Source: Terriglobia bacterium (GTDB lineage Bacteria; Acidobacteriota; UBA6911). From it: 64,000 bases of DNA. Shown here piece after piece: positions 47,142-49,837 of the stretch. Every line of letters begins with the position of its first letter. Position 1 is the first letter of the stretch. Under the pieces are notes generated by a model. It worked only from the letters and a program-made list of their open reading frames with translations, was not told where the DNA came from and searched no databases. Location: positions 62,001 through 126,000 of the forward strand of contig JAIQGI010000003.1 in assembly GCA_020072565.1 (NCBI GenBank), given 5' to 3'. Both the position numbers and the translations under genes were made by a program.

Positions 47142-47168
47142 GATGAGTGGCGAGTCACGGGTTCAGAG
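47142..47168. repeat. single-arm heptamer repeat (unit GGCGAGT)
   Basis: GATGAGT, GGCGAGT, CACGGGT, then a weaker TCAGAGC, between the two TPM genes. GGCGAGT is the reverse complement of the unit in the element at 18841. No second arm is visible, so it may be half an element. Confidence 0.4.
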
Positions 47169-47182
47169 CGAGTCCAGAAGCT

Positions 47183-47818
47183 ATGCTATTGACGGGCGAA
47201 GACAAACAGGCTATTGCCGGCGCAATCCAGAGGGCGGAGTTGACCACTTCCGGGGAAATCGTCTTTGCCGTTGCGGATGCATCCGGGCACTATCACCACG
47301 CCACCCTGCAGGGGGCCCTTGTCGGAACCATCATTGCCACCGTCGTCTACCTCGCTCTCCCTGCTTTCCATACCATTGGCTTGGTTCTCTGGACTGAGAT
47401 CATCGCCTTCGCATTCTTTTACGCCGTGATTCCGCACCTGCCCATGAGGCGCTGGTTTGTCCCGCGGCGGGAAATGGACGACTGTGTTCATGAAGCGGCT
47501 TTCCGGGAGTTCTACACGGGCGGCCTATACAAGACTCGCGAAGCGAACGGGATCCTGATCTATCTATCCTGCCTCGAGCGCCGCGTCGTGGTGCTGGGCG
47601 ACAAAGGGATTCACGAGAAGATGGGCGATCAGCACTGGAATGACGTCCGTGATAAGATCATTCACGGCATCGAGCAGGGAAGGGCCAGAGAAGGCATCTG
47701 CGCCGCCGTGGAGAGCTGCGGCAAAGCTCTTGCCGAGCACTTCCCGCGCCGCCCCGACGACACCAACGAACTCCCAGATGAAGTCATCGATCGCACCCGG
47801 AATACCGGCATCAGCTGA
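47183..47818 (+). CDS. second TPM-domain membrane protein
   Basis: 211 residues. Starts MLLTGEDKQAIAGAIQRAE, then TTSGEIVFAVADASGHY, two transmembrane helices (LVGTIIATVVYLALPAF; LWTEIIAFAFFYAVI), and the second half of a TPM fold: EAAFREFYTGGLYKTREANGILIYLSCLERRVVVLGDKGIHEKMG. Here the membrane helices are inserted within the TPM domain, unlike the preceding protein. The frame extends upstream to 47147 through the heptamer repeat; the ATG at 47183 matches the family start. It completes a lemA–TPM–TPM cassette. Confidence 0.9.
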   Translation: MLLTGEDKQAIAGAIQRAELTTSGEIVFAVADASGHYHHATLQGALVGTIIATVVYLALPAFHTIGLVLWTEIIAFAFFYAVIPHLPMRRWFVPRREMDDCVHEAAFREFYTGGLYKTREANGILIYLSCLERRVVVLGDKGIHEKMGDQHWNDVRDKIIHGIEQGRAREGICAAVESCGKALAEHFPRRPDDTNELPDEVIDRTRNTGIS

Positions 47819-47846
47819 CTGGCGCCGCCAATCAGCGCTTGAGGGC

Positions 47847-48094
47847 AGGGCGTCCGCCGCTTAAGCGCTAAGATAGGAATGATCTTGCCAATAAACGTGG
47901 ACATGGACCTAAACCTGGACGTAGACGTGGACCTTTTGAGCGGAGACAAACTCTTGCACGCCCAGCCTTTATCAGGCTACGGGTCGCTTCTTATCGCTTG
48001 CGGTGCAGCAGAGCGTCAAGGTCCACGTCCAAGTCCAAGTCCAAGTCCAGGTCGGGAAAGTGGGTTAAGTTAGCGCTTAAGGGCGTCCGCCGCT
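47847..48094. mobile_element. MITE-like element with hexamer-array hairpin arms
   Basis: Perfect 15-bp direct repeats AGGGCGTCCGCCGCT at 47847–47861 and 48080–48094. Just inside are perfect 10-bp terminal inverted repeats TAAGCGCTAA (47862–47871) and TTAGCGCTTA (48070–48079). Inside those are two inverted hexamer arrays: seven (G/A)GACNT-type units at 47893–47934 and six reversed units (AAGTCC type) at 48019–48054, around an 84-base centre. It encodes nothing beyond Val-Asp/Leu-Asp dipeptide runs. It lies between two convergent genes. The size, terminal repeats and target-site duplication fit a non-autonomous mobile element; no transposase is present to prove it. Confidence 0.65.
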
Positions 48095-48107
48095 ACCCTT
48101 GAATCCT

Positions 48108-49592
48108 TCAGGGATCGATCGCACTTGTGATTTCGCGAAAGCTCAGCTGCAAGGGCGGAATCAAACCGACCGCCATCCGGACAGCCTCGCGACTGAACAA
48201 GATGTGACTGCTCTCCCTGACAGTGAGCTTCGCGGTCCCCCAACTCATGATTCCACCCGCGTTCGACAACCCTGCAACATAGATTGCGCCCGTGACACTG
48301 CTCCAGCCCCCGCTGTCGAGTTCACCGGCCCCGACGATGAGAATGAGGCCGTTGAATTTGAAGCGGCCCGTAATGGTGACCTTGCCCGTGACCACCAGAA
48401 GGCCTCCTCCTTCGAGATCGCCATCGACGAGGAGGTCCCCATCGACGTAGGTCACCTTCGGATCCTGCGTCGGCGAGGTCGGCGGCAAGGTCGGATCATA
48501 GCTGCCCAGTGACCTCGGTGCGGCGCCGATCCAGCTCTGAGATCCGGAAAATGTGTTGTCGGCGAACTGCAGCACCGACTGCCTGACAAAGCCCCACATC
48601 CAGGCCCCGTCCAGCAGCAACCGCTTGTCGGGACGCATCCCGATCGCAGGAGTAATGTCCTGTACAGAAGGCACCAGCCCTGCTCCCTGGATGTTCATTG
48701 TCTGCGCCGGCGCAAGCCCGGCCATGATCTGTTGGGCGGGCGCGATACCGTCGCCGGCCGCGTCGTCGATGGTGGCAATGCCGGGATTGGCGGCTCCGCC
48801 CTGGATGAAAAACCTGTCACCGAGAAACATCCCGGCAGCAACGGGATCTACGGCGCTGCTCTGCACGGTTACGGGCGCGTTAAAATCGAAGGTGGCAAGC
48901 CGCTTGAATCTCGCCTCAAAAACCACAACCGAATTCCGGCGAGTCCCAGCCAGCGTGGCTTCCATAAGCGTCTGCGCGATCCCCAGCGACCTCAGGATGA
49001 TCTGATCGTCCCCGTCTTGGAACGGGTTATCTGCCGGATCCCCGGCGAGCTCGCTGGCCTCGCCGTTGTTATCGGACACTTTTACGAAATAGCGGCTGGT
49101 CGCCACAGTCCCGGGGCCATGAGGATTCGGCACAATCTGTGCAATTCCCATAATTGGAATCAGGACCACGCCGCTGCCGGCCGGGTGCCAACCCGTACTC
49201 ACGATCCCGTCGTCGGGAACGCCCGACAAGGCGCCGGCAGGATTCAGGATGTCCAACATCCGGGCTGCGGACCAGCCGACGGGCATTCGGAATGCATGCG
49301 TCCCCGCAAACGCAAGGTAGGCCGGGTCGGCACTATTCGTTCCGTCCGGGCCCTGCAGCAGATCGTCGAAGCGGAGGCCTTTCAACAGCGCGCGCCCATG
49401 ATTCAGGCCTGCCAGCGCGGCCGTACGCGCCCGGACGTAGCTCTCGTAGTTGTCGCTGATGCGCACTTCCGATGTTGCTGTCAGGGTGAGATAGAGGCCG
49501 ATAACGGAAAAGAGGGAGAGTGCGATCAGTGCGATCAACAAGGCAAAACCGCCCTGACACGAGCCATCAGTGTGGGCAACATCTCTTCGCAT
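48108..49592 (-). CDS. PilX-type pilus assembly protein
   Basis: 494 residues. After a short leader comes GGFALLIALIALSLFSVIGLYLTLTAT, the hydrophobic helix of PilX N-terminal proteins, with a prepilin-peptidase-like G-F junction but no Glu at +5. Then ATSEVRISDNYESYVRARTAALAGLNHGRALL, a pilin-like helix, and a long beta-rich C-terminal part (YVDGDLLVDGDLEGGGLLVVTGKVTI) like a polymer-forming cytoskeletal (bactofilin-like) fold. Other pilus genes are absent, so it is an orphan minor pilin. ATG at 49592 with GGGA upstream; the frame opens at 49658. Confidence 0.8.
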   Translation of the reverse strand: MRRDVAHTDGSCQGGFALLIALIALSLFSVIGLYLTLTATSEVRISDNYESYVRARTAALAGLNHGRALLKGLRFDDLLQGPDGTNSADPAYLAFAGTHAFRMPVGWSAARMLDILNPAGALSGVPDDGIVSTGWHPAGSGVVLIPIMGIAQIVPNPHGPGTVATSRYFVKVSDNNGEASELAGDPADNPFQDGDDQIILRSLGIAQTLMEATLAGTRRNSVVVFEARFKRLATFDFNAPVTVQSSAVDPVAAGMFLGDRFFIQGGAANPGIATIDDAAGDGIAPAQQIMAGLAPAQTMNIQGAGLVPSVQDITPAIGMRPDKRLLLDGAWMWGFVRQSVLQFADNTFSGSQSWIGAAPRSLGSYDPTLPPTSPTQDPKVTYVDGDLLVDGDLEGGGLLVVTGKVTITGRFKFNGLILIVGAGELDSGGWSSVTGAIYVAGLSNAGGIMSWGTAKLTVRESSHILFSREAVRMAVGLIPPLQLSFREITSAIDP

Positions 49593-49837
49593 GTCTATCA
49601 TTCCCGCCCTTCGCGACCGTCGCGGGGAGTCACCCTTATTGTTTCGCTGGAGCGGCAATTATTTCATCGAGGGCTCCGATTCTCCGACGGGCATGAAACT
49701 CAACCTGCAAAGACCTTCGGGACGGGAACGAATTCCGGATAATTCCCAGAAAGTCATCTTGGTCTTCGCGGTTCGTGTTGCCGGTTACAGCCGGAAATCG
49801 ATTGGTGTCATTGTATCTTTATGGTAAAGGATACGGC

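Follow-up and report, generated by a model that had tools for sequence, protein, structure and literature searches.

The 222-bp non-coding element at positions 47860–48081 of the window (the whole 64,000-nucleotide stretch of Terriglobia bacterium DNA analyzed here) is very probably a non-autonomous MITE of the IS4 family, IS186/IS421 type, which a transposase of that type would have moved in trans into a G/C palindrome. The first-pass annotation had described a MITE-like sequence with signs of having moved, and the answer to whether it moved is yes, with the type of enzyme identified from sequence: the element belongs to a dispersed multi-copy family with shared ends and copy-specific matched duplications, uninterrupted copies of one host repeat are present, and insertion sequences that combine these ends with a transposase occur in other bacteria. 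It is short, non-coding, multi-copy and bounded by inverted ends, is flanked by a matched duplication within the 10–12 bp range, and has its ends in common with autonomous IS4-family insertion sequences; no cognate transposase was found in the draft genome. We infer that an IS186/IS421-type transposase moved the window element, and that this enzyme has since been lost or lies in unassembled sequence. MITEs of the IS186/IS421 type are an already known kind of element, of which this is a new instance.

The element has the ends CTTAAGCGCTAA ... TTAGCGCTTAAG and lies in a tail-to-tail intergenic gap, between a rightwards-transcribed ORF that is conserved in relatives (47147–47818, stopping 41 bp before the element) and a convergent, leftwards-transcribed ORF (48108–49658). 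The perfect 10-bp inverted ends of the first-pass annotation are borne out and extend further, the pair CTTAAGCGCTAA / TTAGCGCTTAAG being perfect over 12 nt (47860–47871 and 48070–48081); the exact 10-nt end occurs just twice in the window, both times at the element's termini. This 12-bp perfect core is part of an imperfect terminal repeat of about 18 bp. The left end (47860–47871, forward strand) is of the IS186/IS421 type, with the consensus CATARGCGYTAACTTAAG, and the right end (48064–48081, reverse strand) has the reverse complement CTTAAGCGCTAACTTAAC, which fits the same type. Internally, a left arm consisting of an inverted GTCCAN hexamer array (47900–47935, reverse strand) and a right arm of five GTCCAN units (48018–48053, forward strand; other copies have three to six) flank an 82-bp core (47936–48017) that is near-invariant across copies and in which no ORF was recognized. 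The arms are 81% complementary, and no second array of this inverted kind occurs in the window. The single-stranded fold predicted for the element is far more stable than that of shuffled sequence (z of -5.6 and -7.8 for the two strands), which reflects the inverted arms and which we do not take as a sign of RNA function.

A 15-bp target duplication had been proposed for this site, and an exact 15-bp direct repeat, AGGGCGTCCGCCGCT, is indeed present (47847–47861 and 48080–48094). After alignment of the family ends, however, the duplication consistent with the other copies shortens to 11 bp, GGCGTCCGCCG (47849–47859 and 48082–48092, both on the forward strand), the remainder belonging to the element's termini; the repeat reads as 15 bp because the terminal letters of the element (C/G and T/A) happen to resemble those of the flank. 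With terminal letters that resemble the flank, the length of the duplication at this copy is ambiguous by a few bases. Nor is the direct repeat a common sequence unlinked to the element, an objection raised with the original proposal: with at most one mismatch, AGGGCGTCCGCCGCT occurs no more than four times in the 7.46 Mb of the genome, and the window element accounts for two of these occurrences.

A search of the Terriglobia bacterium's own genome returned about 18 strong matches to the element, with 90–99% identity and some of them truncated, such that the window element is one of approximately 18 copies and fragments. Nine two-ended elements have readable junctions, comprising eight short copies and one longer sibling that carries a PF05635 gene (on contig C48), and all nine lie in a G/C palindrome. 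Their junctions were transcribed from alignments with flanks, the ends being taken as C(A/T)T...A(A/T)G. The target is mostly GGGC-NNNN-GCCC, which is REP-like; the target of the window copy is by comparison an imperfect palindrome. In eight of the nine the two flanking copies of the palindrome agree in their loop letters and the duplication is perfect; the ninth (C16) has a single mismatch. The loop letters vary between elements (GTGA, TTGC, TGAA, GCAA, GCGA, TCAC) but agree between left and right, beyond what chance pairing would give (permutation p=0.0002, for the eight elements with an N4 palindrome). Most copies duplicate GGCNNNNGCC (10 bp), whereas the longer sibling duplicates GGGCGTGAGCCC (12 bp) and the window copy GGCGTCCGCCG (11 bp); the loop letters of the duplicated palindromes provide a clean natural data set for reading target choice.

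Several of the copies lie inside a longer host repeat that bears REP-like hairpins. When the two flanks of the longer sibling were joined through one copy of the palindrome and the resulting 152 bp searched against the genome, seven uninterrupted host repeats with a single palindrome were found (C48:45878, C9:109601, C56:18556, C16:83195, C7:91753, C9:169564 and C19:206422), matching over essentially the whole 152 bp with 76–91% identity. As empty sites they are paralogous rather than orthologous. The host repeat of about 150 bp (C48:45878–46029, C9:109601–109752 and others in this genome, G000) has inverted ends of its own, CATGAAATATAGTGAC / GTCACTATAATATCTG, and is a landing pad for the MITE. 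An orthologous empty site with one copy of the direct repeat, the check proposed at the outset, was not obtained at the window position among same-genus and family genomes: in the same-genus genome the genes neighboring the site are on separate contigs, and in two family relatives a different small gene fills the convergent gap. In those relatives (G006:C68 and G008:C73) the gap equivalent to window positions 47819–48107 contains a short ORF whose product begins MPIYEYRCxEC and looks FmdB-like on inspection; the gap in the window has no such ORF.

The consensus of the ends, the 17-mer CATARGCGYTAACTTAA, is present in at least 119 genome_contigs stretches from many phyla, which together with the copies in the same genome answers the call for further copies of the terminal repeats. 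Pairing of ends among the matches listed gives 43 candidate elements of approximately 90 bp to 1.4 kb, a few of them spurious (e.g. a 137-bp pair inside the 1327-bp insertion sequence of L125, and a pair in L202 that encloses an unrelated ORF). Seven full-length insertion sequences with these ends, 1324–1442 bp long, are found among the matches listed (L125, L135, L156, L174, L179, L189 and L204), each with one transposase ORF of 365–427 codons; the transposases are 29–57% identical to one another and carry the IS4-family Y-R-E-K motif (YRxRWQxELxFKRxK). Both of the two tested are members of PF01609 (DDE transposase), and the best-scoring annotated relatives of the L189 transposase among plasmid proteins are IS4-family transposases, many named IS421, with 34–38% identity. 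One annotated E. coli IS421, which spans 1339 bp, matches the ends at 18 of 18 positions on both sides and is inserted at GGGGAAAATCCCC, with GGGAAAATCC duplicated. Elements with these ends also duplicate their targets elsewhere: among the matches listed, 14 of 39 distinct junctions have flanking duplications that are at least 90% identical (mean 0.6 and maximum 4 with shuffled right flanks), 12 of the 14 being 11 bp, the modal length.

A transposase with matching ends, which the first-pass annotation had suggested looking for, is thus available in seven full-length insertion sequences and in E. coli IS421, but none was found in the Terriglobia bacterium's own genome, a draft of 135 contigs, where the search gave a single partial match of 27.6 bits (C63); strong matches to the transposase are present in two of the 40 genomes searched (G034 and G039). 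Because the genome is a 135-contig draft and several MITE copies lie at contig ends, an unassembled insertion sequence is possible, and loss is likewise possible. The missing enzyme limits any claim of current activity, although a cognate enzyme in the genome is not defining for a MITE. A search of the literature for the end sequences found no paper.

We propose that a DDE transposase resembling that of IS186/IS421 and supplied in trans would cut out or copy the MITE, and that staggered cleavage of a G/C palindrome, with the cuts roughly one helical turn apart, would lead to its insertion with duplication of 10–12 bp (11 at the window copy). In this genome the targets are mostly repetitive extragenic palindromes of the form GGGC-N4-GCCC. 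The hexamer arms and core would be cargo carried between the ends, akin to the tandem-repeat arms that surround PF05635 genes and able to fold into a long hairpin.

The relationship of this cargo to PF05635 genes is seen in the longer sibling on C48, which has ends CATAGGCGTTAACTTAA, the same kind of hexamer arms with a PF05635 gene (6e-21) between them, and the same kind of palindrome as its target. A search for PF05635 located genes on contigs C2, C17, C20, C36, C48, C71, C73 and C123 and none on C3, the contig of the window, and comparison by eye of translations of the short core with the PF05635 gene revealed no convincing homology. The arms of PF05635 loci are mostly tandem 6–8-mers, usually of period 7, with a unit that differs at most loci. 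Of the 31 PF05635 loci surveyed in this genome and its relatives, 27 have inverted complementary arms, beyond all 60 shuffles and compared with one of 20 control flanks; the survey included L241–L268 and the own-genome loci L057–L062 (G000 C2, C17, C20, C71, C73 and C123). No relevant paper on PF05635 genes with tandem arms turned up in the literature searched, an absence that is weak evidence. The association of PF05635 genes with tandem arms is real as a pattern.

Only four of 36 PF05635 loci scanned have IS186-type ends, all in this genome (C73, C71, C48 and C36). Outside it, MITEs with these ends and a PF05635 gene are present in a Planctomycetota record (L121), with a perfect 11-bp duplication, and in a Desulfobacterales record (L144), with no clean duplication, giving two cases, C48 and L121, of a PF05635 gene within transposon ends and a perfect duplication. 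Other MITEs with IS186-type ends carry a GIY-YIG gene (L161) or a DUF559 gene (L191), each inside its own inverted repeats. Conversely, inverted GTCCAN arrays occur without these ends in the same genome (C69, C86, C74 and C34:19027) and in family members (L073, L082, L091, L097, L100, L074 and L079), and the core therefore has a wider life than the MITE. Three of these arrays (G000 C69:5400–5600, G000 C86:29880–30080 and L082) are within different inverted ends resembling GAATGGCACTTA, which suggests that a core of this kind is also carried by a second type of MITE, and in one family relative (L079, G013:C93:24040–24335) the hexamer-array unit is present in three tandem copies.

Such arrays without IS-type ends, and the prevalence of inverted arms at PF05635 loci when so few have IS186-type ends, are what would be expected if the hexamer core (with the PF05635 gene in the longer sibling) were itself mobile, for example as an RNA or DNA hairpin moving by its own route, with the IS-type ends as a secondary vehicle. 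We regard this as a possible but distinctly less probable account, as in both the window element and the longer sibling the duplications abut the IS-type ends and not the hexamer arms; the last movement of each therefore used those ends. A retro-element mechanism driven by the PF05635 protein was also considered, but copies with IS-type ends do not require it. More speculatively, and less probably than not, PF05635 genes outside rRNA could lie at the heart of a widespread class of mobile hairpins, defined by inverted, locus-specific tandem 6–8-mer arms and moving alone or in IS186/IS421-type MITEs; the window element would then be a derivative that retains the arms without the gene.

Movement of the element together with the palindrome by a REP-associated (Y1/RAYT-type) or other non-DDE system would account for insertion in REP-like palindromes, but we think it very improbable: the duplications match within a copy and differ between copies, and the ends are those of the DDE transposon IS421. 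To our knowledge, Y1/RAYT-type systems are not expected to duplicate their target. A purely local palindromic or REP-type repeat arising by recombination or slippage with no transposon, an alternative raised in the first-pass annotation, has in its favor a genome rich in REP-like host palindromes and the extra AGCGCTT at 47834, which is real and part of AGCGCTTGAGGGC (47834–47846; 12 of 13 bases agree with the right end of the element followed by GGGC, perhaps by chance or perhaps as what is left of an earlier copy), but is rejected as scarcely credible in light of the near-identical dispersed copies, their constant ends and element-specific duplications, and the insertion sequences that share those ends and encode a transposase.

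The transposon we favor can be compared with four known systems. REP, BIME and REPIN repeats supply the landing palindromes, but the window element is no REP itself, having DDE-transposon ends and target duplications. The likeness to 23S rRNA intervening sequences (S23/IVP, PF05635), which are described as hairpins with an S23p ORF (PMC4990558), lies in the PF05635 gene between complementary arms in the longer sibling; the siblings differ in occupying intergenic REP sites within transposon ends and in having arms of tandem hexamers, and the window copy has no PF05635 gene and is located between two protein-coding ORFs, not in 23S rRNA, and so has neither defining feature. For more than 25 years intervening sequences have been described as unclear in origin and mobility, and a paper on the Coxiella intervening sequence calls the function and origin of such sequences unclear and lists transposition as one hypothesis (PMC4990558). 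The likeness of the core to PF05635 arms suggests one way in which such genes may move, and PF05635 genes with tandem arms inside transposon ends provide one concrete, testable vehicle for the mobility of intervening sequences.

Within the IS4 family, the IS231 subgroup has ends of the form CAT-------AA--TAA and direct repeats of 10–12 bp (PMC2266710). The consensus of the MITE ends fits this signature, as do the 10–12 bp repeats, the comparison being one of signatures; IS231 elements are described as almost confined to Firmicutes and are 1450–5400 bp long, whereas the related insertion sequences reported here are 1324–1442 bp and span many phyla. Non-autonomous cassettes (MIC231) are known for IS231. 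The closest resemblance is to IS421 and IS186 of E. coli and its relatives, also of the IS4 family, which have in common with the MITE the 18-bp consensus CATARGCGYTAACTTAAG, a G/C palindrome as target and a duplication of about 10 bp. IS186, which is close to IS421, prefers targets of the form G4 N6-7 C4. The window element differs in that it lacks a transposase, is 222 bp rather than about 1340 bp, has a hexamer-array core, and has a left end, CTTAAGCGCTAAGATAGG, that diverges from the consensus after 12 bp.
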